Source: Chromohalobacter sp. 11-W
Lineage (GTDB): Bacteria > Pseudomonadota > Gammaproteobacteria > Pseudomonadales > Halomonadaceae
NCBI RefSeq assembly: GCF_029889905.1
Contig: NZ_JARANZ010000006.1
Span: 124,001-188,000 of the forward strand
Direction of reading: 5' to 3'
DNA length: 64,000 nucleotides
Below the pieces are notes generated by a model. It was not told where the DNA came from. It made no database searches and worked only from the letters and a program-made list of their open reading frames with translations. Every line of letters begins with the position of its first letter. The stretch's first letter is position 1. Positions 1-14,076 of the stretch are shown here, piece after piece. A program made the position numbers and the translations under genes.

Positions 1-824
1 ATACTTCCAAATGATCCGTTTGGCATTGTGTCTCTAGAAAAATTCCGCAATGTTTCCGCATTAGCAAAATCCTCTCTTGATCGCTGCAAATGATTCTTAT
101 ATACCTTGAATTTATTAGCCTGGCAGACCTCAGTAATTTCTTCTTCGGAATGGCTATCATATGCCGCAAGTAGCTTTCTTACGTAAGTTATTTCATTCTC
201 GCTCACGTCTTTCGATATCTCTGGGGTAATGGGCCTTTCTGGCAATTGGACTCCAAATCTCACGACGTGAAACTGGGTTTTGCTATGTTCCATAATTATT
301 TTTATAGTGGCAATTTTATCAAAAGCACTAAAGTCAAGATTTTGGATATACGACTTTAACTCATCTGTCAACTCAATTTCACCAATATCTGTTATGTTTT
401 TCCTGCAGTAGTTATCCCAATTCTCAAAAAACTGCTTCTTCAATTTATCAGGCTTTTTTAATAAATTGGCAAGTTTTGTACCGATCCCCAATGGCGCAAT
501 AAAATAGTATTTCCTCGGGAAAGGATATTCTTCCATAAAAGAGTAGTAGCAGATTTTCGCAATCTCATTCCAAATTTTTGCGGGAGACAATGGGGCAGCG
601 TAATGCTTGCATTGATAGTTATCCCAAATATAAGTATTGCTTCCAACAGGGTTGTCTACATAGCCTACTACATCCCTACCTTGGTCTCCGGCTCCACCAA
701 GTCTTTCAAAGTCATAATAGCTAGATGACTTGTAACTCATCCACTCTTCAATAAATTCTTCCCAGTCATCAGGAGACATAGTGGATATCTGATTTTGTAC
801 AGTGATATGTTTTCCCAAACTCAA
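1..824 (-). CDS. ABC-three-component (ABC-3C) system effector, N-terminal part (3' end off window)
   Basis: The reverse strand is open from the left edge to a TTG at 822-824; about 274 residues are visible. TTG is preferred because AGGAAGG lies 9 bases upstream and residues 7-16 (ITVQNQISTM) read as part of the domain; an ATG at 777-779 is the alternative. Residues 40-51 (E-RLGGAGDQGRD) and 71-75 (QCKHY) form a D...QxK pattern of an Mrr-like restriction-endonuclease fold. Residues about 105-145 hold a conserved-looking block (YFIAPLGIG, then WDNYC). From ~214 (YVRKLLAAY, then RDTMPNGSFG) it resembles the C-terminal region shared by ABC-3C effectors. In that family the effector works with a middle component and an SMC-like ABC ATPase in phage defence; both would lie to the left, outside the window. 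The gene is far richer in A+T than the chromosome, which indicates transfer. Family assignment is from memory of motif patterns. Confidence 0.7.
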   Translation of the reverse strand, partial: MSLGKHITVQNQISTMSPDDWEEFIEEWMSYKSSSYYDFERLGGAGDQGRDVVGYVDNPVGSNTYIWDNYQCKHYAAPLSPAKIWNEIAKICYYSFMEEYPFPRKYYFIAPLGIGTKLANLLKKPDKLKKQFFENWDNYCRKNITDIGEIELTDELKSYIQNLDFSAFDKIATIKIIMEHSKTQFHVVRFGVQLPERPITPEISKDVSENEITYVRKLLAAYDSHSEEEITEVCQANKFKVYKNHLQRSREDFANAETLRNFSRDTMPNGSFGS

Positions 825-840
825 AACTACACCCCTTCCT

Positions 841-846
841 ATTATA
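841..846 (-). promoter_or_regulatory. Candidate -10 hexamer upstream of the ABC-3C effector gene
   Basis: The minus strand reads TATAAT here, a perfect sigma-70 -10, in an A+T-rich leader. No convincing -35 is seen 16-18 bases upstream. Transcription from it would start within or just after the AGGAAGG ribosome site of the TTG start, so either this is not the promoter or translation begins at the ATG at 777-779. Confidence 0.25.
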
Positions 847-913
847 CTTTTCTGTCTTGCTTCTTAATTGTTATCAGAATAAAGATGAACAATGCTTCGC
901 AAGGTGTTTACGG

Positions 914-999
914 CACATAACGCCGCCAACACGCGCAGCTTTGTAGTGAAGGCGCAGCCCCAACGGAAAAGCTGTCGCCGTGCTTGGCTTGGTTATGTG
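914..999 (-). other. Integron attC recombination site (distal to DUF1989 cassette)
   Basis: The ends form an inverted repeat: CACATAAC at 914-921 and GTTATGTG at 992-999. Inside it CCAA, CACG and CAGCTTT (924-941) pair with the complement of AAAGCTG, CGTG and CTTGG (969-988), leaving an unpaired G on one arm, as in the extrahelical bases that orient attC. The loop contains GAAGGCGCA, also present in the attC at 1694-1778. It lies just after the stop codon of the gene at 1045-1665, as expected for a gene cassette. The core GTTATGT fits GTTRRRY at 6 of 7 positions. Confidence 0.75.
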
Positions 1000-1044
1000 T
1001 AGGGAACCCCATCAGCACCTCACCTTCCGCGACTCTGCAACAAG

Positions 1045-1693: not shown

Positions 1694-1778
1694 CACATAA
1701 CGCTTGCAGCATGCGCGCCCTTGGAATGGAGCCGAAGGCGCAATGGAAAGGGCGTCGCCATGCCTGCACTTGTTATAG
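1694..1778 (-). other. Integron attC recombination site (distal to ABM cassette)
   Basis: Ends are ATAAC at 1697-1701 and GTTAT at 1772-1776. The arms pair through TGCAG, CATG and GCGCCCTT (1705-1722) with the complement of AAGGGCG, CATG and CTGCA (1756-1769); the right arm carries one extra G between TGCAG and CATG, at the same place as the unpaired G in the attC at 914-999. The two sites also share GAAGGCGCA and GTCGCC. The stop codon of the ABM gene lies inside the GTTATAG box, a common arrangement in cassettes. Confidence 0.78.
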
Positions 1779-2066
1779 CTTTTTCATCAATGTGACTTCA
1801 GTTGGCTCTGCTAGCCAGTGTTCGAATTTTTGCGCAATCAACTTTGTATGCTCTTCCTGGTGGTGGTTATCTAGGGCAGCTTCTGTCTCCCATTCTTCAT
1901 ATAGACAAATGTAACGACCACAATCTGATACATACAGCTCAAATTGAATACAGTCGGCCTCGTTTCTTGTAGCTTCTAACATTCCCAGCAATTCATTTTA
2001 TGCCGACTCAAAGAACTCTGCTTTCGGGGTGATCCTTGCAAAAACGAAAGTGTTTTTAATTGACAT
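1773..2066 (-). pseudogene. ABM-domain (putative quinol monooxygenase) cassette gene broken by an in-frame TAA
   Basis: Reading from ATG at 2064-2066 (GAGGG ribosome site 5-6 bases upstream) gives 22 codons, MSIKNTFVFARITPKAEFFE and so on, then TAA at 1998-2000, then an uninterrupted continuation NELLGMLEATRNEADCIQFE through CLYEEWETEAALDNH to the stop at 1773-1775. Joined, it is 97 residues, normal for an antibiotic-biosynthesis-monooxygenase (ABM) protein, and the frame is unchanged, so a single nonsense change (for example AAA to TAA) is the simplest explanation. A shorter product from an internal ATG would lack the first beta strand. It occupies the cassette nearest the integrase remnant. 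Confidence 0.75.
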
Positions 2067-2094
2067 GAAACCCTCTACTACTGACTAATTTTAG

Positions 2095-2145
2095 CTATAA
2101 CAGGTATTAGATAGCGCGCTCGTTTTGTCACTTGAACGAGCGCGC
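2095..2145. other. Probable attI-side cassette boundary with 11-bp hairpin
   Basis: The minus strand carries GTTATAG at 2095-2101, the same core that ends the ABM-cassette attC at 1772-1778, so this is the expected first-cassette junction. Next to it 2114-2124 (GCGCGCTCGTT) and 2135-2145 form a perfect 11-bp inverted repeat with a 10-base loop. Whether this is attI, an attC remnant or a transcription signal cannot be told from the sequence. No LexA box was seen. Confidence 0.4.
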
Positions 2146-2524
2146 GCGTTCAAGAAATCTTATCAAGCCCGCCTTTTCGCACCTGACCCATTGATTCCAC
2201 ATTGTGCTAAGCATAATTCGACACGTTATGCAGGATTCGTGTGCTGGCAAGCTTCATTGGGGTTGAGAATAAAACGCTCCAGCCCTCACACCGTGAAGAC
2301 CTACTGCTACTGGATACGTTATTTCATTCGCTTCAATGGCTTACGTCATCCCGCCAGCATGGGTGGTCCCGAAGTGAAAGCTTTTCTGGAGCATCTTGCG
2401 GTACAGCGCCATGTGGCCGCGGCCACGCAGAATCAGCCCTGATGCTCTTGTTTTCTATATCGGCATGTACTGGGAAAAGTTTTATCGGAGTGCGGGGTAT
2501 ATTGGGATGAGGATAGGATTTTAG
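2125..2524 (+). pseudogene. intI: Integron integrase remnant (IntI), frameshifted and truncated
   Basis: From about 2278 the frame reads SPHTVKTYCYWIRYFIRFNG, RHPASMGG, EVKAFLEHLAVQRHVAAATQ, NQ, then stops at 2440-2442. This is the N-terminal SAM-like (core-binding) domain of integron integrases; intact relatives continue with ALNALVF. That continuation is present in the +1 frame from 2444 (ALVFYIGMYWEKF) and ends at TAG 2522-2524, so two single-base losses near 2436-2443 explain the break. The catalytic tyrosine-recombinase domain (R-H-R-Y) and the integron-specific insertion are absent. The TTG at 2125 is only the edge of the open frame; the real start probably lay nearer 2200. The gene faces away from the cassette array, the normal integron layout. 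Cassettes here can no longer be moved by this copy. Confidence 0.72.
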
Positions 2525-2709
2525 CCACGCTACCGCCCCTACCTGTGCATGCGGCGATGAGCGGCTGTCATCCATGCGGTAGTCCCAGCGTAATGGTTTA
2601 TCACCGGCCTTCTTAAGTAGCCTTTGCTGTACCGTAACCAGCCGTTACAGGGAGAGCAATGCCCACGAAAGGATAAAGCGCAAAGCATTTCAAGCTGGGG
2701 GTACTGGAG
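2525..2709. other. Intergenic, no gene seen
   Basis: This stretch follows the integrase remnant and precedes the stop of the TetR gene. No continuation of the integrase catalytic domain, no inverted repeats of an insertion sequence and no convincing small gene are visible. The right-hand border of the integron must lie in or near it. Confidence 0.5.
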
Positions 2710-3357
2710 CTACTGGCTGACGTCGCCGAGCATGCTGTCCAGTTCGTCCTGGTCTACGCCGAGCATCTGCAGGATGTTGCGCTGGGCGGCTTCGAGGATG
2801 TGCTGGCGTTCTTGCTCGCCGGGCAGGCTCTTGGCGAGGGCCACGGCGCCCACCAGGGAGGCAAGAATGACGCGGGACTTGTCGGCGATGACGTCGCGGT
2901 CAGGTTCGAAGGGCAGTTTCTTGAGGCGGCTCAGGGCGATGAGGCGGGTTTCCAGCATCTTCTTCATGCGCAGGTAGGAGGCTTCGAAGAGCGTGCGGAT
3001 CTCGGCGTTCTCGTTGCCGATCTCGTTGAACAGCACGGTCTCCGGCCCGGGTTGGTGCTTGCGTTCCAGTTCCTGGAGATTCCAGCAGTTGGAGACCAGT
3101 TCCGTGAGGTGCTTCACCGAAAGCGGCCCCTTGACCAGCCTGGCCGCGCGGCTGCTTTCCAGGGTGTCTCGCACCGAGGCGTGGTACAGCGCTTCCTTGG
3201 AGGCGAAGTGGGCATAGAAGGCGCCGTGGGTCATCTTGGCCAGTTTCATGATCTGGCCGATGGAGACCTTCTCGAACCCTTGGCGGCTGAACAGTTCGAC
3301 GGCCGATTTAAGGATTCGCTCGCGCGATCTGGCCTTGCGATTCGTCGAGTCGGACAT
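2710..3357 (-). CDS. TetR/AcrR family transcriptional regulator
   Basis: The 215-residue protein has an N-terminal TetR helix-turn-helix at about 11-57 (RERILKSAVELFSRQGFEKV, then IGQIMKLAKMTHGAFYAHFA), the FYAHF segment being the recognition helix. The remaining ~150 residues form an all-helical ligand and dimer domain, LysR-unrelated, of the kind often sensing hydrophobic ligands. It is divergent from the ketoacyl synthase at 3471 with 113 bases between, holding a palindrome (3411-3425) that is the likely operator for both genes. Fatty-acid-linked regulation is inferred only from the neighbour. Confidence 0.85.
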   Translation of the reverse strand: MSDSTNRKARSRERILKSAVELFSRQGFEKVSIGQIMKLAKMTHGAFYAHFASKEALYHASVRDTLESSRAARLVKGPLSVKHLTELVSNCWNLQELERKHQPGPETVLFNEIGNENAEIRTLFEASYLRMKKMLETRLIALSRLKKLPFEPDRDVIADKSRVILASLVGAVALAKSLPGEQERQHILEAAQRNILQMLGVDQDELDSMLGDVSQ

Positions 3358-3410
3358 GGCGACCTCACGCTGCTGCTCAGAATAGGTGCTGAATACACAC
3401 TGAATATTAT

Positions 3411-3425
3411 CTTGATCATATCAAG
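3411..3425. promoter_or_regulatory. Palindromic operator candidate between tetR-type gene and ketoacyl synthase gene
   Basis: CTTGAT-CAT-ATCAAG is a perfect 6-bp inverted repeat around a 3-base centre, next to an A+T-rich segment (GAATATTAT) that could be a -10. The position between divergent regulator and target is typical for a TetR-family operator. Confidence 0.45.
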
Positions 3426-3470
3426 CCCGGTGCTAGCGTGGCGTAAATTCCAACAGTTCAGGACACTCGC

Positions 3471-4736
3471 ATGTCATCACCGCTCGTTATCACCGGCATG
3501 GGCATGGTCAGCCCCCTCGGTTGCGGCGTCAATGCCAGTTGGGAGCGCCTTCTGGCGGGCCGCTCCGGCGTTTCCTCGATCACGCGCTTCGAGACCGGCG
3601 AGCTGCCGATCAAGGTCGCGGGTTCGGTTCCCGGCATGGAGAGCGACCCAGAGGCGGGCTTCGACCCCGACCGCGTCGCCGATGCCAAGGAACGACGCAA
3701 GATGGAGCTGTTCAGCCTTTATGCCATGGCCGCCGCCGATGAGGCGCTGACCCAGGCGAACTGGTTCCCATCGAGCGATGAGGATCGGCTGGCCACCGCC
3801 ACTATCGTGGGCTCCGGCATCGGAGGCTTCCCGACCATCACCCAGGCGCAGGATACGCTAACGACGCGCGGCTACCGCCGACTCTCGCCGTTCACCGTGC
3901 CGGCCTTTTTGGCCAACCTGGCGGCGGGCAATGTGTCGATTCGCTATGGCTTGCGCGGGCCGTTGGGCTGCCCGGTCACGGCCTGCGCGGCGGGCGTGCA
4001 GGCCATCGGCGATGGCATGCGCATGATCCGCAGCGGCGAGGCCGAGGTGGCCCTGGTGGGTGGCGCCGAGGCCTGTATCGACCCGCTCTCATTGGCCAGC
4101 TTCCATGCCATGAAGGCGCTCTCCACCGAGCAGGAGGCGCCTGCCAAGGCGTCGAGGCCTTTCGATCAAGCCCGCAACGGCTTCGTCATGGGCGAAGGCG
4201 CGGGGCTCCTGGTGATCGAGACCCTGGCCCATGCCGAGGCGCGCGGGGCAACGCCACTGGCCTTTCTCAGCGGCTATGGCACCAGCGCGGACGCCCACCA
4301 CATCACCGCCGGGCCGGAAGATGGCGCCGGGGCCGCGGCGGCCATTCGGGCCGCGCTACGTATGGCGGGGCTCGCCCCCGATGCCATCGATCACATCAAC
4401 GCCCACGCCACCTCGACGCCGGTCGGCGACCGGGCGGAGATCGCCTCCTTGCGCAATGCGTTCGGCGACGCGTTGCCCGGCATCCCGATCTCCGCCACCA
4501 AATCGGCTACCGGCCACCTGCTCGGTGCCGCCGGCGGCGTTGAGAGCATCTTCTCGGCCCTGGCGGCCATCCAGGATCGCCTGCCCCCGACCCTGAATCT
4601 GGAGCACGCCGATGAAGATCTAAGCGACTTGGACTTCGTCGCGGGCGAGGCACGCGAACACCGTAGCCAGCACGTACTGTGCAACGGGTTCGGCTTCGGT
4701 GGGGTTAATGCCGCGCTGATCGTCAGCAAGGTGTAG
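3471..4736 (+). CDS. Beta-ketoacyl-ACP synthase II-like (FabF-type) condensing enzyme
   Basis: The 421-residue protein has the KAS II layout. The nucleophile is Cys172 in VTACAAG, with the catalytic histidines His312 (NAHATSTPVGD) and His349 (KSATGHLLGAAGG) and the C-terminal GFGFGG loop. It would condense acyl-ACP (or acyl-CoA) with malonyl-ACP in the cytoplasm. It is not beside acpP or fabD/fabG, so it is likely an accessory paralogue rather than the housekeeping FabF. The residues around 50-75 (GSVPGMESDPEAGFDPDRVA) are the usual variable insertion. Expression is probably controlled by the divergent TetR regulator. It is monocistronic; a hairpin lies 35 bases after its stop. Confidence 0.85.
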   Translation: MSSPLVITGMGMVSPLGCGVNASWERLLAGRSGVSSITRFETGELPIKVAGSVPGMESDPEAGFDPDRVADAKERRKMELFSLYAMAAADEALTQANWFPSSDEDRLATATIVGSGIGGFPTITQAQDTLTTRGYRRLSPFTVPAFLANLAAGNVSIRYGLRGPLGCPVTACAAGVQAIGDGMRMIRSGEAEVALVGGAEACIDPLSLASFHAMKALSTEQEAPAKASRPFDQARNGFVMGEGAGLLVIETLAHAEARGATPLAFLSGYGTSADAHHITAGPEDGAGAAAAIRAALRMAGLAPDAIDHINAHATSTPVGDRAEIASLRNAFGDALPGIPISATKSATGHLLGAAGGVESIFSALAAIQDRLPPTLNLEHADEDLSDLDFVAGEAREHRSQHVLCNGFGFGGVNAALIVSKV

Positions 4737-4770
4737 GCGCTGTCTGAAAAGTACTGTGCTCCGACAAGCC

Positions 4771-4801
4771 GCCACCACCGCTTCGGCGCAGCGGTGGTGG
4801 C
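4771..4801 (+). terminator. Hairpin downstream of ketoacyl synthase gene
   Basis: GCCACCACCGC at 4771-4781 is exactly complementary to GCGGTGGTGGC at 4791-4801, loop of 9. No U-tract follows, so it is either a weak intrinsic terminator or an end-protecting hairpin; it lies between convergent genes. Confidence 0.5.
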
Positions 4802-4875
4802 TAAGAAACGCTCGCTGAGACGGTGAGGCGAGCGGCAGGACACGTTGCCGCGACGCCCAGGCTGTGTCTCCTGCC

Positions 4876-5487
4876 TTACCGTTTCGCGCTGGCCAGGGCG
4901 GCCCCGAAGCACATGAAGGTCGCGCCACCGATGCGGTTGACGACGCGTGCTCCCGTTGGCGAGCCGAACCATCCCTTCGCCTGTTGCCCAAAGAACGCAT
5001 ACAGGCAGTGAATCACCATGACCAGCGTACTGTAGGTCAGCACCAACAGCGTGAACTGTGCGGTGAAGTTACCTTGTGGGCTGATGAACTGAGGAAAGAC
5101 CGAGAGAAAGAAAAACACGGCCTTGGGATTCGTCAGTTGTATCGTCAGCCCTTCGAGAAAGCGGCGGCGAAAGCCTAGCGATTGCGTGGGCCGTTCAGCG
5201 AACGTAAGCGACGGCGAGCGCCAAAGACGAATCCCCAGATAGAACAGATAGGCGGCGCCGAGGAACTTCATCGCCGTAAAGGCAACCGCCGAGGTCGCCA
5301 ATATCACACCGACACTCGAGGCGGAAATGCCCGCTACGAGCAGTGTGCCAAAGGCAATACCGACTATTCCGCCAAGACTCCCCATGAAGCCAAACCGCAA
5401 CGAATTGCTCAGGGTCATCACGACGCCCGGCCCCGGGCTGAGCACTGTCAGCGTTGCCATTATCAGAAAAAGCCAATACAGGTCCAT
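4876..5487 (-). CDS. LysE/RhtB family amino-acid exporter
   Basis: With the ATG at 5485-5487 (GAGG upstream in GAGGATCTGAG) the product is 203 residues and begins MDLYWLFLIMATLTVLSPGP, the canonical first membrane segment and SPGPG signature of the RhtB family. Five to six hydrophobic segments follow, with the LTNPKAVFFF motif at mid-protein. The open frame extends 25 codons further upstream, but those residues are hydrophilic and unlike the family. RhtB-type proteins export homoserine, threonine or related amino acids across the inner membrane; the substrate here is not predictable. It is convergent with the ketoacyl synthase gene. Confidence 0.85.
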   Translation of the reverse strand: MDLYWLFLIMATLTVLSPGPGVVMTLSNSLRFGFMGSLGGIVGIAFGTLLVAGISASSVGVILATSAVAFTAMKFLGAAYLFYLGIRLWRSPSLTFAERPTQSLGFRRRFLEGLTIQLTNPKAVFFFLSVFPQFISPQGNFTAQFTLLVLTYSTLVMVIHCLYAFFGQQAKGWFGSPTGARVVNRIGGATFMCFGAALASAKR

Positions 5488-6227: not shown

Positions 6228-6254
6228 AAAAATGCCGCTTCCTAGGAAGCGGCA
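6228..6254 (-). terminator. Rho-independent terminator of the aldehyde dehydrogenase gene
   Basis: A 22-base perfect palindrome (TGCCGCTTCCT at 6233-6243 and its complement) is followed on the minus strand by five U (A-run at 6228-6232). It lies about 60 bases past the dehydrogenase stop and also separates it from the convergent toxin gene. Confidence 0.8.
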
Positions 6255-6312
6255 AAGCATAAGTCGGACGCGACTCAGTTTCGTGGATGGCGGTTACTGA
6301 CTACAGGCTCTC

Positions 6313-7833
6313 TCAATAAAGCCCCATCGGGTCGTCGCTGTAGGACACCAGTACGCATTTCACCTGCTGGTAGTGGTCGAGCATCAGCTTGTGGGTCTCG
6401 CGGCCAATGCCTGACTTCTTGTAGCCCCCGAATGCCGCGTGCGCGGGGTATTGGTGATAGCAGTTGGTCCACACGCGACCGGCTTGAATGCCCCGACCCA
6501 TGCGGTAGGCGCGATTCATGTCGCGGGTCCAGACCCCGGCGCCTAGGCCGAATTCGGTATCGTTGGCGATGGCCAGCGCTTCTTCTTCATCGCGGAAGGT
6601 CGTGATGGCGAGCGTGGGGCCGAAGATCTCCTCCTGGAAGACACGCATGTCGTTGCGGCCCTTGAGAATGGTGGGCTGCACGTAGAAACCACCCGCCAGC
6701 TCGCCCTCAAGCGTGGCCTTGCCACCGCCCAGCAGGCATTCGGCGCCCTCCTCGCGGCCGATGTCCATGTACGAGAGGATCTTGTCGAATTGCTCCTTGG
6801 AGACCTGGGCGCCGATCTGCGTTTCGGTATCCAACGGATCGCCCTGGCGAATGGTTTTGGCGCGTTCGATGGCGCGGGCCATGAACTCGTCATAGATCGA
6901 CTCGTGCACCAGCGCGCGCGACGGGCAGGTACACACTTCGCCCTGGTTGAAGAAGGTCATCAGCAGGCCTTCGATGCACTTCTCGGCGAAGGCCTCGCCA
7001 TGCGAGAGCACGTCCTCAAAATAGACGTTGGGCGACTTGCCGCCCAGTTCCAGCGTGGCCGGCACGATGCGCTTGGCGGCATTGGCCATGATATGGCTGC
7101 CCACCGGGGTGGAACCGGTGAAGGCGATCTTGGCGACACCTTCATGCGTGGTCAGCGCCTCGCCGGCTTCTTCACCGAGGCCATGCACGACGTTGATCAC
7201 GCCCGGCGGCACCAGGTCGGCGATGAGTTCGAGGAAGATGTTGATCGAGGCCGGGGTCTGTTCGGCCGGCTTGAGCACCGAGCAGTTGCCGGCGGCGAGC
7301 GCAGGCGCCAGCTTCCAGGTCGCCATGAGGATGGGAAAGTTCCAGGGGATAATCTGGCCCACCACGCCGTAGGGCTCGTGATAGTGATAAGCGACGGTGT
7401 TCTCATCGACTTCACTGATGGTGCCTTCCTGGGCACGCAGGCAACCGGCGAAATAGCGGAAATGATCCGCCACCAGCGGGATGTCGGCGCCGCTAGTTTC
7501 GCGGATCGGCTTGCCGTTGTCCCAGGTCTCGGCCACGGCGAGCTTATCGATGTTCTGCTCGACACGATCGGCGATCTGGAGCAGCACCTTGGCCCGCTCG
7601 GCGGGCGGCATCTTGCCCCAGGCCGGGGCGGCTTTCTGCGCCGCCTTCACCGCACGGTCGATATCCGCAGCCGATGAACGCGGTACCTGACAGAAGACCT
7701 CACCGGTGATCGGGGTGATGTTGTCCAGATAGCGACCGTCGGCGGGCGCCACCCACTCACCGCCGATGAAATTCTCGTAACGCGACTTGAAGTCGACGAC
7801 GGCACCTGGGGTGCCGGGACGTGCGTGAATCAT
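6313..7833 (-). CDS. NAD(P)-dependent aldehyde dehydrogenase (acetaldehyde dehydrogenase, ExaC/AldB-like)
   Basis: A 506-residue ALDH-superfamily enzyme oxidising aldehydes to acids. Cofactor residues are seen in [13 protein letters not shown] and in [11 protein letters not shown]; the general-base glutamate is in LELGGKSP (about 270); the nucleophilic cysteine is in [12 protein letters not shown] (about 308-310). The double cysteine CTC and the C-terminal [20 protein letters not shown] are typical of the AldB/ExaC acetaldehyde-dehydrogenase group. It is divergent from an AraC-family regulator with repeated sites between them, suggesting induction by an alcohol or aldehyde. Single-gene unit with its own terminator. 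Confidence 0.88.
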
Positions 7834-7938
7834 GGCGTGTCTCCTTGGGCGAATGCGCCGGGGCGAATCGTCTGGTGTGCGACCCTGCCCCTTGGAAAAT
7901 GAGTACGCATCGCCCTCAGCATGGCGTGTCGGCCAGGC

Positions 7939-7980
7939 GTCGGTTTGCCTGCCAGTCTCCGACGTTTGTCTGCCAGTCTC
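7939..7980. promoter_or_regulatory. Tandem direct repeats, likely AraC-regulator binding sites
   Basis: TGCCAGTCTC occurs at 7950-7959 and 7971-7980, and the similarity extends leftward (C-GTTTG-C before each), giving two 21-bp units head to tail. A 21-bp period is two helical turns, the usual spacing of AraC-family half-sites. The repeats are about 110 bases from the dehydrogenase start and 80 from the regulator start. Confidence 0.5.
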
Positions 7981-8058
7981 AGATAGCGAATTTGCCTACA
8001 CTGCAAGGTAACGGGCGTCATCCACGCCCACACCGTCGGTACCGTTCAGGAGTTCGCC

Positions 8059-9021
8059 ATGCACGCCGTCACGCCTCCCGATTCGCGCTCCCGGGGCTCC
8101 CAAGTGGACAACGCCCGCGCGCTCGAGCAACTGACGGATACGCCCCGCACGCGGCGCTTGATCGAGAATCGCATCTGTTACGCGGGCCCGCATGCGGAGC
8201 TTTCGATCTACGATACCTGGTGGCCCGCGCAGGATGTCGCCTTGAGCGCCGAGCGGGTGCTCTACTGCGGCATGCTACAAGGGCGCAAGGTGATGAATGG
8301 CGCCACCGAAGTGCCGGAAACCTTCTTGCCGGGCGAGAGCTTCGTGCTGGCGCCGCATCAGGAAGTGCGCATCGATTTCCCCGATGCGCGCCCCGACGCG
8401 CCCACCACCTGCATGACTATCGATCTCGATCCCGCGCGCATTCACGCCCTCAGCGAGCGCCTCAACCAGGCCCAGCCGCGCGAACGAGAACTCGGCGAGT
8501 GGCACTATCATCCGCATGCCCTCCATGTACCGCACAGCCCGACCACCCAGGCGCTGATCGAACGCTTGATGGGGCTGTTCCGCGAGAATCACCCCGACCG
8601 CGACGCGCTGATCGGGCTGGGCATCGACGAGTTGATCGTGCGCCTGCTGCGTACCCAATCGCGTGAGTTGCTGCTCGCCGACGCCCGCCAGGCGCCACCG
8701 CGTCACGGGCTCGCGGCCGCCCTGGCCTGGCTGGAACGCCACCCCGAGCAGCCTCTGGACGGGGCGCAATTGGCCCGCGAGGCCTGCATGAGCAAGGCGC
8801 GCCTGTATCGGCTTTTCCAGCGCGAGGTCGGCTACACCCCCGGCGAGTATCAGCAGCGCCTGCGCCTGGCACGCGCTCGCCAGTGGCTGCGCGAGGCCGA
8901 CGCTCCCATCACCGAGATCTGCTACTCGCTGGGCTACCGCAGCCTCAGCCACTTCACTCGGCGCTTCAAGGCGGCCTATGGCCTCACGCCGGGCGACTAT
9001 CGACGTCTACTCATCGCCTGA
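8059..9021 (+). CDS. AraC family transcriptional regulator
   Basis: The 320-residue protein has an N-terminal AraC_N-type sensor domain (about 25-190; for example LSAERVLYCGMLQGRKVMNG) and a C-terminal double helix-turn-helix at about 215-315. The first HTH is LDGAQLAREACMSKARLYRL, the second ITEICYSLGYRSLSHFTRRF, followed by the family signature AAYGLTPGDYRR. It probably activates the divergent aldehyde dehydrogenase gene through the repeats at 7939-7980. Both genes are transcribed away from a 225-base shared region. The effector is unknown. Confidence 0.87.
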   Translation: MHAVTPPDSRSRGSQVDNARALEQLTDTPRTRRLIENRICYAGPHAELSIYDTWWPAQDVALSAERVLYCGMLQGRKVMNGATEVPETFLPGESFVLAPHQEVRIDFPDARPDAPTTCMTIDLDPARIHALSERLNQAQPRERELGEWHYHPHALHVPHSPTTQALIERLMGLFRENHPDRDALIGLGIDELIVRLLRTQSRELLLADARQAPPRHGLAAALAWLERHPEQPLDGAQLAREACMSKARLYRLFQREVGYTPGEYQQRLRLARARQWLREADAPITEICYSLGYRSLSHFTRRFKAAYGLTPGDYRRLLIA

Positions 9022-9282
9022 GCGCGCGGCGATTTAAAGACGCCTAAAATGCATCTTCCATCAGCGCCTCCTCAAGGAGTGTGCTTGCATTTCAGCGTCA
9101 ATCCGATAAAGTAGATAACGAAATTTTATTCTACCCGCGCAAGGCAAGAATTCCTCGTGATGCACGTTCATCGTACTAAGCAAGCCGTACTAGGCAATAT
9201 GAGTGTCACGCGGAATTCGTGACCGGGGTAGGCATTTCCTGCATCGCGCCGCGATGCATATAGTGTTTACAAGAGAGACATC

Positions 9283-10089
9283 ATGACATTACGTCACGCC
9301 GAAAGCGGCGACGCTCCGCGATTGCACCTCGACCTCACTCCTTTTCAGGAAGACGGCCAGTGCTACGGCGACTACCACCGCCTGCCACTCAACCCGATGC
9401 TCAAACGCCTGTGCATAGAAGCGCGCCGCGCCGGCCTCGCGGATGCATCGCTCGGGGCTCGCGACCTGATGAGTCATATGGCACTCGATGAAGATCATAT
9501 CGTCACCCAGGAAATCTCCGGGCGCGTATGGCGCTATAATGTCGGCTACTCGGAGGCGCCCAGCCAACTCGATTCGGCGCTGGATTCACTCGGCGAACGC
9601 ATGCTCGAGGAACCGCTGCCCACCGGCCTGGCACAGCTCACCGAGTCATGGGTCTATATGCCCGGACAGCTCGATGCCGCCACGACTCAAAGCACCGACG
9701 TGCTGTGGATGGATAAGTCCGCGTGGGCACGCTATCGCCTCGAACAAGTCCAGCTCTGGTTTCGTGCGTTGCGCGACGATGCCGAGCGTCTCGACGACGG
9801 CTGGCTGGCCTGGCATCTGACCCACCTACCGCTGACACGCGCGCCGGTGTTCGATAGCGTCGATGCATTCAGCAAGCTGGCGCGCCTCGACCTCGGCGGC
9901 CGCAATGCCCTGGGGCAACTCTCCTTCGTGCGTTATCAACATGGAGAATGCCACGAGGGCATGGGGCTGGCGATCACTCAACTGCCGCATCACCTCGACG
10001 CGTTGGCGCCGCTGGACGACGCCCTGGTGGTGCCCGCACGCCAGGTCGACACGATACTCGCACGCCTGGATCGCGCGCTCGCCGACTAG
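9283..10089 (+). CDS. Unrecognised 268-residue protein
   Basis: I do not recognise this family. The product is soluble, acidic, without a signal peptide or membrane segment. Notable features are an N-terminal QEDGQCYGDYHRLPLNP, a tryptophan-rich middle (ESWVYMPG, VLWMDKSAWARY, WFRAL, GWLAWHLTHLPL) and a C-terminal FVRYQHGECHEGMGLAITQL. Codon use matches the neighbours, so it is resident. The region upstream (9022-9282) has no gene; an A+T-rich patch near 9110-9140 could be a promoter. The gene is convergent with lptG, with a strong hairpin between. ATG with AAGAGAG upstream is the start. Confidence 0.7.
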   Translation: MTLRHAESGDAPRLHLDLTPFQEDGQCYGDYHRLPLNPMLKRLCIEARRAGLADASLGARDLMSHMALDEDHIVTQEISGRVWRYNVGYSEAPSQLDSALDSLGERMLEEPLPTGLAQLTESWVYMPGQLDAATTQSTDVLWMDKSAWARYRLEQVQLWFRALRDDAERLDDGWLAWHLTHLPLTRAPVFDSVDAFSKLARLDLGGRNALGQLSFVRYQHGECHEGMGLAITQLPHHLDALAPLDDALVVPARQVDTILARLDRALAD

Positions 10090-10137
10090 GCTTTTTACGA
10101 AAGCTGCCTGTGCGACACGCGCGGCAATGAACGAAAA

Positions 10138-10171
10138 CGCCCCCGGTGCCGAATTGACGGCGCCGGGGGCG
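10138..10171. terminator. Bidirectional terminator between the 268-residue gene and lptG
   Basis: CGCCCCCGGTGCCG (10138-10151) pairs with CGGCGCCGGGGGCG (10158-10171) with a 6-base loop. On the minus strand it is followed by UUUUCGUU, so it best serves lptG. Confidence 0.7.
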
Positions 10172-10199
10172 TTGCGTTGGGGCCTGCGTAGCGTTTCCG

Positions 10200-11264
10200 T
10201 CAGCCGGTGCGTCTGAGCAGCACGATGCCCAACACATAGCAGGCCACGGTGGGTACCAGCACCGCGAACACCGGCGAGAAGCCGAACAGCATCGACGCCG
10301 GCGCCAATAGATCCTGCAGATACTTGAACGAGACGCCGACGATGATGCCGTAGAACACCCGCGTGCCGGCGGCCACGGTACGCAACGGGCCGAACACGAA
10401 GGAGGCAGCCACCAACATCAGGCCCGCCAAGGTGAAAGGCAGCAGCATTTTCTGCCAGAAGTACAATAGTGGCTGCGTGGCCTCGAGCCCCTGGTTGCCC
10501 AGGTAACTGGCGTAACGCCACAAGTCGCTGGGCGACTGGCTCTCCAGCGGGCGCAACAAGCGATTGAGCTGTTCGGGGGTGAACGAGGTCTCCCAGGTAC
10601 GCTTGTCAGTGGTGTCGACGACGGTCTGGCCGTCCTCGAAACGCGTTTCCTCGATGTTTTGCCATTGCCAGCTACCGTCTTCCCAGACCGCACGGTCGGC
10701 ATGCTCGGCACTCACCAACTGCGTGCCATCGAAGTGATAGCGCGTGACATCGATGACCACGTCATCCGCGCGGATGGTGCCGAAGCGATAGAAATCATCG
10801 CCCTCGCGCTGCCAACCGCCACGCTCGGAGAGAATCGCGCCCTCGCCCTCGAGCTGCTCGAGCCGCCAAGCCTCGGCATGTTGCTCTGTCACCGGGCTGA
10901 CCCACTCGCTGATCGCCATGGTCAGGATGATCACCAGACCCAGCGGCTTCATGGCGCCCCACAGAATGCGGGCCAGCGAACGCCCGGAGGCGCGCATCAC
11001 CGTCAACTCGTTACTCGACGCCATGCTGCCCAGGCCGATCAGCGCGCCAATCAGCACCCCCACCGGCGCATATTGATAAAACCGCCACGGTAGGCGCATC
11101 AACAGATACACAAAGACGTCGAGAGCGCCGTAGTTACCCTCGACGTCACCGAGATCGTTGATATAGGAAATGACCAGATCAAGCCCCAGGATCATGACCT
11201 GCACGACCAGCATGGCCGCCAGCACATTGCGCGCAATGTAGCGATCGAAACGGTCGAAAATCAT
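10200..11264 (-). CDS. lptG: LPS export ABC transporter permease LptG
   Basis: The 354-residue inner-membrane protein shows the YjgP/YjgQ layout: three N-terminal membrane segments (MLVVQVMILGLDLVISYI, a second near 60-85, a third near 100-125), a ~145-residue periplasmic beta-jellyroll (about 130-265) and three C-terminal segments. With LptF and the LptB ATPase it extracts lipopolysaccharide from the inner membrane and hands it to LptC. Its ATG overlaps the lptF stop as ATGA, so the two are translationally coupled. LptF/LptG are essential in Gram-negative bacteria of this type. Confidence 0.95.
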   Translation of the reverse strand: MIFDRFDRYIARNVLAAMLVVQVMILGLDLVISYINDLGDVEGNYGALDVFVYLLMRLPWRFYQYAPVGVLIGALIGLGSMASSNELTVMRASGRSLARILWGAMKPLGLVIILTMAISEWVSPVTEQHAEAWRLEQLEGEGAILSERGGWQREGDDFYRFGTIRADDVVIDVTRYHFDGTQLVSAEHADRAVWEDGSWQWQNIEETRFEDGQTVVDTTDKRTWETSFTPEQLNRLLRPLESQSPSDLWRYASYLGNQGLEATQPLLYFWQKMLLPFTLAGLMLVAASFVFGPLRTVAAGTRVFYGIIVGVSFKYLQDLLAPASMLFGFSPVFAVLVPTVACYVLGIVLLRRTG

Positions 11265-12343
11265 GTGCGGCCCCCTCGGCGCTGATCACGGCGTGTCATC
11301 CATATTCCCAGCAGCAGATACCCCAGGTGGATCGGCCACATACCGATGGATGGCGCCAGCGAGCCACGCGAGATGGCATCCTGAGCCGCCAGCAATAAGC
11401 TCAAGTAACTGATGTGCAGGAAGATCGCCGGCATCAGCTTGGCGAAACGTCCCTGCCGTGGATTGACCCGCGACAGCGGCAGCGCCAGCAGGGTGAGGAT
11501 CGGCACCATCAGCGGCATGGAAAGCCGCCACTGCAGATGGGCCCAGGCCTCGTTATCGCCGCGCTCGATGAGCTGCGGGGTCGAGGTCAGCTCGGCGGCA
11601 TCGAGATCGACCCGCTCGCTGGCGCGCGATAGGCGCACCGCATAGGTGTCGAACTGCACCCGCTCGGCGACGTTTTTACCCGGTTCGACGCTGTAACGCT
11701 CGCCATCGGTCAACACCAGGAAGCGGCTGCCAGTATCCTCGTCGACCGTCTGATAGCCGCCTTCGGCCCGCGTGACGACCGTCTCCGGTGTGCCATCGTT
11801 GCGTGGCTGGCGCTCGCTGATGAAGACGTTTTCCATCCGCGAGCGGTCATCGTTGAGGCTCTCGGTATAGGCGGTGCGCCCACTGCCGAACTCCTGGAAA
11901 CGCCCCGGCTGCAGCACCGAGAAATCGAGCCGGCTTTTCTGTTCCTCGAGCACCATCTCGTTGTGGCGGGCACCGCTCGGGGTCAGCCACAGGCTGCACA
12001 CCGCCACCAGTATGGCCACCAGCACTGCCGGCCACAGCGTCACCCGCAATAGCCGGTTGGGGCTGATGCCACAGGCCACCAGTACGGTGATCTCGCTATT
12101 GAGATAGAGCTGTCCGAACGCCAGCAGAATGCCGAGAAAGAACGACAGCGGCAGCACCAGCTCCATGAACCCGGGCAGGTGAAAAAGCATCAGGGTGCCA
12201 AGAATGTTGGCAGGAATATCCCCTTGCGCGGCATCGCCGAAATAGCGAATGAAGCGACTGCCCATGATCACCAGCAATAGCACGCCGGCCACGGCAGCCA
12301 TGGTGGCGAGGATCTCGCGCGTCAAATAGCGGAATACGATCAA
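11261..12343 (-). CDS. lptF: LPS export ABC transporter permease LptF
   Basis: I place the start at TTG 12341-12343 (product 360 residues, IVFRYLTREILATMAAVAG), because GGGAG lies 8 bases upstream and this is where the family begins; the frame is open 35 codons further but codes for a basic, non-conserved stretch. Membrane segments, then a periplasmic jellyroll domain (about 125-260, with VVTRAEGGYQTVDEDTG), then three C-terminal segments. It is the LptG partner in the LptB2FG transporter and the first gene of the two-gene unit, divergent from pepA as in many gammaproteobacteria. Confidence 0.93.
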   Translation of the reverse strand: MIVFRYLTREILATMAAVAGVLLLVIMGSRFIRYFGDAAQGDIPANILGTLMLFHLPGFMELVLPLSFFLGILLAFGQLYLNSEITVLVACGISPNRLLRVTLWPAVLVAILVAVCSLWLTPSGARHNEMVLEEQKSRLDFSVLQPGRFQEFGSGRTAYTESLNDDRSRMENVFISERQPRNDGTPETVVTRAEGGYQTVDEDTGSRFLVLTDGERYSVEPGKNVAERVQFDTYAVRLSRASERVDLDAAELTSTPQLIERGDNEAWAHLQWRLSMPLMVPILTLLALPLSRVNPRQGRFAKLMPAIFLHISYLSLLLAAQDAISRGSLAPSIGMWPIHLGYLLLGIWMTRRDQRRGGRT

Positions 12344-12552
12344 GCGTCTTCTCCCGGGTCGGTTCCCTGGTCCACGACGACCCCTTGCGGGGCCCAATGC
12401 AGCCTTCGACCACCCTCCCCATGCATTGCGTTCCGGCTTTGCGTACACTGGAGTACGTTCAGCGCCGGCATCCTTGTCGGCATTATCCAGAATACTCGGA
12501 CACTTGTCTCGCCACGAGACAAGACATGCCAGCTCAGTCGTGTGGAGACTTC

Positions 12553-14076
12553 ATGGAATCCCCCGTAATCAACGTCAACCCGGCCAAGGTCGAAACGGCA
12601 TGCCTGATCGTGCCCGTCTTCCAGGATGGGGACCTGCTGCCAGCGGCGGACAAGCTCGACGACGCCAGTGAACGCCTGATCGGCCAGCTTCTCGACCGGG
12701 GCGACTTCGATCCCAGCCTCGGCAATGTGCAGTTGATTCCCTTCGCGCCGGGGCTCGGTGCCGAGCGTCTGTTGCTCGTCGGCCTCGGCGAGCGCGCTAA
12801 GTGCGGCGAAGGCCAGCTCATCAAGGCCCTCGATGCCGCCTTCGCCGCCGTCATCAAGCTGCCGCTCGACGACGTGGCCGCCGCCTTCACCGACGTGCCG
12901 GTCGGCGAACGCGACACCGCCTGGAAAGCGCGCGTCACGCTGGAAGCCGCGCATCGCGCCTGCTATCGCTTCGACGACTTCAAGTCGCAGCCGGCCCCCG
13001 CTCCGCGCCTCGAGAGCCTGACGCTGCTGGTCAGCGACGCAGATGAGACGCCCCAGGCCGAACTAGGGGCCCGCATCGGTGCCGCCGTCGGCGAAGGGGT
13101 CGCGCTGACGCGTACCCTGGGCAACCTGCCCAGCAATGTTTGCACGCCGCGTTACCTCGCCGAGCAGGCACAAACACTGGCTGCGGATGCCGATGGCGCA
13201 CTGAACGTCGAGATCCTCGACGAGGACGCCTTGCAAGCGCTGGGCGCCAACGCCCTGCTCTCTGTCGGTCAAGGCAGCGAAGAACCCTCGCGCCTGATCG
13301 TCATGCAGTATCGCGGCGCCGAGGACCCGGATGAAGCCCCGCACGTCCTCGTCGGCAAGGGCATCACCTTCGATTCCGGCGGCATCTCGCTCAAGCCGGG
13401 AGCCGGCATGGACGAGATGAAGTTCGACATGTGCGGCGCCGCCAGCGTCTTCGGCACCATGAAGACGGTGCTCGCGCTCAAGCCCAAGATCAATATCATC
13501 GGCGTGGTGGCAAGCGCCGAGAACATGCCCGATGGCCGCGCCTTCAAGCCCGGCGACATCGTCAAGACCCTCAAGGGGCTCAACGTCGAGATCCTCAACA
13601 CCGACGCCGAGGGGCGCATGGTGCTGTGCGACGCGCTGAGCTACGTCGAGCGCTTCAAGCCCGCTAGCGTGGTGGATATCGCGACCCTGACCGGTGCGGC
13701 GGTCATCGCCCTGGGCCATCATGCCTCGGGGCTGCTGTCCAACGACGACGATCTGGCGCTGGACCTGCTCGACGCCGGCGAGAACGCCTGGGATCGCGCT
13801 TGGCACCTGCCCTTGTGGGACGAGTACCAGAGCCAGCTCGACTCCAACTTCGCCGACTTGGCCCACATCGGCGGTCGTCCCGCGGGCACCATCACGGCGG
13901 CCTGCTTCCTGTCGCGTTTCGCCGATGCCTATCCGTGGGCGCACTTGGATATCGCCGGTACCGCCTGGGCTTCGGGTGACAAGAAAGGCGCCAGCGGCCG
14001 CCCCGTGGGCCTTTTGACCCAATACTTGCTCGACCGCGAAACCGAGGCCAACGAGACCCGCCCCAGCGTCGAGTGA
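12553..14076 (+). CDS. pepA: Leucyl aminopeptidase (PepA, M17)
   Basis: From ATG 12553 (GGAG upstream) the product is 507 residues. The N-terminal regulatory domain (about 1-165) precedes the M17 catalytic domain. Two-metal-site residues lie in VGKGITFDSGGISLKPG, DMCGAAS and LNTDAEGRMVL; the substrate and bicarbonate region is in DIATLTGAAVIALGHHASG. PepA removes N-terminal residues in a hexameric cytoplasmic enzyme and in enterobacteria also acts as a DNA-binding protein at carAB and cer sites. Divergent from lptF, the conserved order, but separated from holC-valS here by two extra genes. The open frame upstream of 12553 (56 codons) overlaps lptF and is unlikely to be translated. Confidence 0.94.
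   Translation: MESPVINVNPAKVETACLIVPVFQDGDLLPAADKLDDASERLIGQLLDRGDFDPSLGNVQLIPFAPGLGAERLLLVGLGERAKCGEGQLIKALDAAFAAVIKLPLDDVAAAFTDVPVGERDTAWKARVTLEAAHRACYRFDDFKSQPAPAPRLESLTLLVSDADETPQAELGARIGAAVGEGVALTRTLGNLPSNVCTPRYLAEQAQTLAADADGALNVEILDEDALQALGANALLSVGQGSEEPSRLIVMQYRGAEDPDEAPHVLVGKGITFDSGGISLKPGAGMDEMKFDMCGAASVFGTMKTVLALKPKINIIGVVASAENMPDGRAFKPGDIVKTLKGLNVEILNTDAEGRMVLCDALSYVERFKPASVVDIATLTGAAVIALGHHASGLLSNDDDLALDLLDAGENAWDRAWHLPLWDEYQSQLDSNFADLAHIGGRPAGTITAACFLSRFADAYPWAHLDIAGTAWASGDKKGASGRPVGLLTQYLLDRETEANETRPSVE

Follow-up and report, generated by a model that had tools for sequence, protein, structure and literature searches.

A complete Lamassu operon in a chromosomal integron of Chromohalobacter that most likely entered as a single gene cassette

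The left edge of the stretch of DNA analyzed here (64,000 nucleotides, positions 124001-188000 of contig 35 of the Chromohalobacter genome G000, hereafter the window) cuts through an open reading frame lying directly behind an integron attC site, which raises the question of what this frame encodes and whether it came into the array together with partner genes. An earlier note on this DNA had described a 274-codon, A+T-rich frame and taken it for the start of an ABC-3C defence effector. This frame was indeed found on the minus strand (3..824, TTG start at 824, open at the left edge) with all of the listed motifs (ERLGGAGDQGRD, QCKHY, APLGIG, WDNYC and RDTMPNGSFG), and the GC content was 37% in window 1-500 versus 62.5% across the whole window. 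The contig was extended leftward as L002, in which the window position equals the L002 position minus 12000.

The extended sequence confirmed the effector call, since the complete protein carries a C-terminal ABC-3C CTD6 domain above cut-off (E 1.1e-34). The partners that the earlier note had proposed to look for were also present leftward: the SMC-like ATPase was recognized by PADLOC as LmuB, and the middle component by Pfam as MC2 (E 1.9e-49). The three frames are open and follow the order lmuA-lmuC-lmuB, lmuA overlapping lmuC and lmuC overlapping lmuB (cf. Table 1), and the same A-C-B order was seen in the four plasmid relatives fetched. Judged by its sequence, lmuA-lmuC-lmuB is a complete Lamassu/ABC-3C operon. 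Pfam SMC_N scored 19.6 bits on LmuB, under its cut-off of 40, and a scan of the genome_contigs collection with LmuB as a single protein confirmed no relative; the LmuB profile matched 9hqu_A among PDB sequences at 8.3e-19, while the LmuA and LmuC profiles gave matches at chance level only. Residues E22, D47, D51 and Q71-C72-K73 of LmuA were invariant among nine aligned LmuA proteins and again among 47 (of 96 complete frames). In LmuB, the Walker A motif and the CxxC hook were invariant in all nine aligned proteins, and a GKG-RA signature was also found. The Walker B motif reads LD(S/T)P, with Glu replaced by Ser or Thr, in nine out of nine aligned LmuB proteins of the CTD6/MC2 clade. According to PMC10586767 (excerpt), Lamassu generally has Gln in place of this Glu, and its ATPase activity is expected to be low; the CTD6/MC2 clade has another letter there, presumably with the same sense.

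Table 1 Features of the integron array and the Lamassu operon. Window positions left of the window edge are negative.
Feature	Window position	L002 position	Strand	Details
Integron integrase remnant	2254..2574		(+)	N-terminal part only, one stop; 48/111 residues identical to L065 IntI
Box GTTATAG, likely attI crossover point	2095..2101		(-)	complementary to R'' box of A1
Cassette 1, ABM-domain frame	1773..1991		(-)	PF03992 E 2.7e-8; in-frame stop just upstream (in 1773-2000)
attC A1	1695..1778	13695-13778	(-)	96 bits (training site); ends cassette 1
Cassette 2, DUF1989 protein, 206 aa	1045..1665		(-)	PF09347 E 5.4e-36
attC A2	915..998	12915-12998	(-)	102.5 bits (training site); ends DUF1989 cassette, R' box opens Lamassu cassette
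Cassette 3, Lamassu, window part	1..920		(-)	defined by boundary boxes; whole = 920 to -2663, 3,584 bp
lmuA, 344 aa	824 to -210	11790-12824	(-)	PADLOC LmuA 2.6e-108; CTD6 120.1 bits, cut-off 26.4
lmuC, 173 aa	-697..-176	11303-11824	(-)	PADLOC LmuC 4.9e-51; MC2 167.7 bits, cut-off 26.9
lmuB, 628 aa	-2580..-694	9420-11306	(-)	PADLOC LmuB 1.4e-150
attC A3, truncated	-2669..-2611	9331-9389	(-)	59 nt, 12.4 bits, E 0.24; just after lmuB
attC		8524-8607	(-)	87.7 bits, training site
attC		7397-7473	(-)	31.5 bits, outside training set
attC		6814-6895	(-)	64 bits, training site

The same note had also assigned the effector an Mrr-like nuclease domain. The Mrr restriction endonuclease family (PF04471, Mrr_cat) was rejected, as it scored 15.5-16 bits versus the Pfam cut-off of 21, while the restriction-endonuclease fold itself was recovered; the protein is therefore better named an LmuA effector of restriction-endonuclease fold. 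LmuA was modelled with AlphaFold2 at a mean pLDDT of 94.5 and a pTM of 0.79. The top Foldseek match of this model was 9nxx_D, an LmuA of solved structure (E 1.4e-3, probability 1.00); all 73 matches had E values above 0.001. In structural alignments, the best nine rows were all Lamassu LmuA chains (Z 13.0-10.3), followed, for the N-terminal part, by AF1548, FokI, AspBHI and MspJI (Z 9.3 to 8.0) and by Cap4 (6.7 to 6.3). The rmsd amounted to 11-17 Å in eight of the nine LmuA rows, which we read as two domains probably placed differently, and the C-terminal domain alone superposed on 9hqu_C with 2.6 Å over 116 residues. LmuA is thus predicted to hold a nuclease domain with intact active-site residues and a fold near those of LmuA, FokI, MspJI and Cap4; its activity is putative, as a shared fold alone does not imply it.

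The surroundings of the operon were those of an integron array. A naive scan for R''/R' boxes gave 74 matches, mostly noise, and a covariance model (R1) built from 23 attC sites, 19 of them from other genomes and four from the window's own array, was used instead. It marked five clear attC sites in L002, all on the minus strand, four of which were its own training sites (cf. Table 1). The site directly upstream of the frame (A2), which had already been pointed out, was detected with E 6.9e-27 over the window. When folded as the bottom strand, A2 was equalled by none of 200 shuffles, and A1 by five of 200. Of 275 genomes from the family, 140 contained sequence like window 910-1003, i.e. A2, which also recurred in eight plasmid records from seven genera; another attC of the A2 type (89% identity) lies on contig C38 of this genome (114721-114799). 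An Rfam scan of L002:4500-15000 returned nothing up to E 1. The integrase remnant scored 61.1 bits against TIGR02249 (cut-off 265), and no intact integron integrase was found in this genome, the remaining matches falling below the same cut-off.

Delimited by their boundary boxes, cassettes 1-6 measure 400, 780, 3584, 807, 1127 and 583 bp, the Lamassu cassette being three- to ninefold longer than the others and oriented like its neighbours, away from the integrase remnant. The in-frame stop in cassette 1 means that the first array position may be a pseudogene. An HNH_2 protein is encoded in cassette 5, flanked by unknown frames of 235 aa in cassette 4 and 176 aa in cassette 6, and a SnoaL protein, an 82-aa frame and an NTP_transf_6 protein lie left of cassette 6. 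The placement of the operon at the far end of the array was accordingly mistaken, as more cassettes lie left of the window and the Lamassu unit is the third cassette from attI. The protein of cassette 5 (L002:7521-8459, minus strand), two beyond Lamassu, matched HNH_2 (3e-13) and PADLOC HNH (1.1e-11) and resembles the model of a phosphorothioate-DNA restriction enzyme, albeit at 39.3 bits of a 180-bit cut-off; it is a second candidate defence cassette.

The two ends of an integron cassette match each other: the R' tail at the 5' end pairs with the R'' box of the attC that the cassette itself carries. The ends of the Lamassu unit were exactly complementary (ACATAAC / GTTATGT), and so were those of the neighbouring next cassette (ATTTAAC / GTTAAAT). 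Dinucleotide shuffling of the 110-bp gap behind lmuB reproduced both expected boxes, in order, in only one of 20,000 trials, and the single boxes in 69 and 400 trials. Since the ends match exactly, entry of the operon in a single 3,584-bp cassette is the most likely history, and we consider it quite probable that window 1-920 represents the 5' portion of such a cassette, which carries the complete Lamassu (ABC-3C) operon lmuA-lmuC-lmuB. Of the two routes envisaged in the earlier note, entry of the three genes as a cassette thus gained support from the matching ends, whereas insertion at the array end was not borne out. The attC that had been expected after the ATPase gene was found behind lmuB, but it is truncated (A3): its fold was no better than those of shuffled sequences (z -0.26), and beside A4 it looks, by eye, like an attC minus part of its right arm. 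With both score and fold lacking, A3 was rejected as a working 3' attC. The cassette would have entered at attI through integrase action, after which the integrase would have decayed and the 3' attC would have lost part of its right arm. Because only an integrase remnant and a non-folding 3' site are left, the Lamassu cassette is probably stuck now; the damage to A3 counts against present mobility, and less so against arrival as a cassette.

To place this locus among its relatives, an alignment of LmuA was used to search genome_contigs, which yielded 327 relatives. Among the best 80 of these, LmuC was found in 80 and LmuB in 77, and the closest were from Vibrio atypicus (68%) and a gammaproteobacterial metagenome-assembled genome (MAG; 63%), both lying, by eye, in non-integron DNA. 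Of 142 plasmid records with LmuA, four were fetched and tested. Among 89 loci (L032-L120) scanned with model R1, L118 alone was flanked by attC on both sides; a match in L113 (E 0.037, model positions 25-63 only) was taken as noise, and the sites of L065, which are attC of another type, were missed. A model-independent test required an attC-like hairpin on both sides and own ends that are exactly complementary. It was applied to 97 loci, 94 of which had LmuA and LmuB matches (the window's own included); at least three of the tested loci were present twice (L037/L074, L086/L141 and L062/L143), and the flanks available for the test were short in loci close to a contig end. Hairpins were found downstream in 19, upstream in 25 and on both sides in five, and two of the 94, L118 and L065, passed. 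End pairs taken across loci passed in 12 of 8,742 cases, so about 0.13 passes would be expected by chance among 94. The window's own locus failed this two-hairpin test because of A3. A looser version flagged three of 87 loci (L118, L065 and L107), and L107, with a fold of -8.7 kcal/mol, was rejected as it fails the stricter test.

In L118, a Chromatiales MAG (DRLG01000102.1), lmuA-C-B lies between attC sites at 1702-1773 and 5292-5364 in a cassette of 3,591 bp with the ends GTTATGC / GCATAAC, and an intact IntI (417 bits) is encoded on another contig of the same genome. In L065, a Myxococcales MAG (JAEUKH010000003.1), an intact IntI (3150-4175, minus strand, 409.2 bits, cut-off 265) is followed by attC sites at 4636-4724, 6241-6329 and about 6766-6856, then by lmuA-C-B and an attC at 10437-10527; this cassette has the ends GTTAGAC / GTCTAAC and measures 3,671 bp. 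All three genes were named by PADLOC in both loci, with Pfam CTD6 and MC2 above cut-off. Cassette 2 of L065 (4798-6246, plus strand) encodes a 482-aa AAA ATPase matching PADLOC HEC-04 (3.3e-58), and this array would hold two candidate defence cassettes. As both genomes are MAGs, an assembly error is possible. The same capture seems to have occurred at least twice more, in bacteria unrelated to the present one, if the assembled sequences are taken at face value.

The independence of these captures was examined on an LmuA tree of 59 rows, in which the three cassette-borne LmuA need three changes and the starred branches force three, while 0% of 200 bootstrap trees had one change. Label shuffling gave counts as low in 500 of 500 cases, and with three labels only this test is without power; independence therefore rests on the starred branches. 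The L118 locus shared 81-84% DNA identity with three relatives failing the cassette test from about 1833 to 5240, i.e. over the operon without its attC flanks (two of these relatives, L054 and L058, have less than 400 bp upstream), and L065 shared 81% with L086 from 6927 to 10267. Since loss of similarity outside the genes is expected anyway, this supports capture of a bare operon only weakly.

Within the genus, sequence like window 2700-4800 was present in ten of ten genomes. The left chromosomal flank was also found in five of the eight congener stretches fetched (L157-L161), with other content in between, and one of the eight (G005) shares the DUF1989 cassette at 97%. None of these eight stretches gave a Lamassu protein match, and LmuB occurred in one genome of ten, namely this one. 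An integrase above cut-off was likewise seen in one of the ten (G008, contig C4:136-1065, L163; 396.1 bits), adjoining the same flank; matches in the other nine stayed below cut-off and were split in G003 and G009. Read from these comparisons, the genus has long carried this integron on its chromosome, and among the ten genomes sampled only the present one has the Lamassu cassette. Family-wide, six of 275 genomes had LmuB or MC2, and the other five loci (L036-L040) showed no matched ends. In Vibrio, CTD6 was found in five of 227 genomes, and the test for matched cassette ends, with limits set without reference to Vibrio attC, was negative at these five loci. Integrase and CTD6 match are on different contigs in Vibrio atypicus (C1 and C8, respectively).

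Lamassu has been described to sense stem-loop hairpins and DNA ends (PMC12904381, excerpt), and its LmuA to be freed to form a tetramer (PMC12409362, excerpt). By analogy with the solved relatives, LmuB would be a Rad50/SMC-like sensor that, together with LmuC, restrains the LmuA nuclease via CTD6. When LmuB encounters hairpins or ends in phage or plasmid DNA, it would release LmuA, which would form a tetramer and cut DNA, and the invaded cell would be stopped or killed. Integrons, for their part, move genes by recombining attC hairpins folded from single strands. A sensor of hairpins and DNA ends (PMC12904381, excerpt) inside such a platform is a puzzle, and one speculative answer, to which we give little credence, is that a defence triggered in this way was captured several times by the attC-hairpin platform, so that its sensor either must tell attC from invader hairpins or is coupled, in its cassette form, to integron activity, being tolerant when integrase and single strands are scarce and triggered by foreign single-stranded or palindromic DNA.

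Three other readings of the locus deserve consideration. That a complete Lamassu system was put between the cassettes by another mechanism, the attC-like end after lmuB being a relic of a neighbouring cassette, would fit the failure of A3 as a working attC and the location of the closest relatives (Vibrio atypicus and the gammaproteobacterial MAG) in other kinds of DNA, from which non-integron transfer appears to be common; however, both A3 boxes are those a cassette predicts, in an order that shuffling rarely reproduced, and L118 and L065 show that such an operon does become a cassette, so this course of events is rather unlikely. The operon might also serve mainly to stabilize the array by addiction rather than to act against phages, given that its effector is a probable DNA-cutting toxin restrained by its partners and that large integrons are known for toxin-antitoxin cassettes. 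We find this very improbable, as the targets of those Lamassu and ABC-3C systems that have been tested are phages and plasmids (PMC10586767, excerpt).

The last reading, which is compatible with entry as a cassette, is that the operon is a silent passenger, with intact genes unexpressed at position 3 of a dead integron. A scan for sigma-70-like promoters in L002:9300-14600 returned nine sites versus 11.3 expected, none above chance in the cassette; the integrase is only a remnant, and expression is described as weak for cassettes at a distance from the array promoter (PMC12409362, excerpt). On the other hand, the lmuA, lmuC and lmuB frames have stayed open, whereas intI and cassette 1 carry stops, and the scan was limited to sigma-70-like sites. 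Silence is therefore possible, though we lean against it.

Integrons are seen as libraries of anti-phage genes; the cassette format is said to admit only small, streamlined defence systems, and those with more than two genes are reported to be missing from integrons (PMC12409362, a review, excerpt). Twelve defence systems, including Kiwa and Shedu, were found in the integrons of Xanthomonas (PMC12444791, excerpt). No report of a Lamassu cassette in an integron was found in the literature searched, which included excerpts of PMC12409362, PMC12444791 and PMC12342005 and, as represented in the review, Darracq 2025, Kieffer 2025 and Getz 2025. The Lamassu cassettes would be exceptions to the reported absence of systems with more than two genes, and three separate captures of an entire three-gene operon of 3.6 kb would argue against a hard limit. 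A multi-subunit, SMC-based system would thus be packable as one cassette, with an intact integrase next to it in the Myxococcales genome.

The system in the window is like Lamassu type II, i.e. DdmABC of Vibrio cholerae, and like Salmonella LmuACB (PDB 9uxl, 9uxh, 9hqu, 9hqx and 9hr5) in its three parts: a nuclease effector with a C-terminal docking domain, a small middle component and an SMC-like ATPase. Its LmuA model fits the solved LmuA structures of these systems at 8-16% identity in structural alignments. It differs from them (i) in belonging to the CTD6/MC2 clade, with Ser/Thr, not Gln, in place of the Walker B Glu, and (ii) in lying in an integron, whereas DdmABC lies on a genomic island (PMC12409362, excerpt). 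With the plasmid-borne and chromosomal ABC-3C systems of the CTD6/MC2 clade it shares gene families and gene order, LmuA being 40-44% identical for most of them and 68% for Vibrio atypicus, but the tested loci of this clade, except L065 and L118, lack matched attC flanks. The known anti-phage integron cassettes (Darracq 2025, Kieffer 2025 and Getz 2025, as cited in PMC12409362, excerpt) likewise carry defence genes as cassettes; systems of more than two genes are notably absent among them according to the same source, while three genes occupy one 3.6-kb cassette here. Both the Lamassu system and the integron platform are therefore of known kinds, and the apparent novelty lies in one cassette holding the entire three-gene Lamassu operon, in each of three separate lineages.
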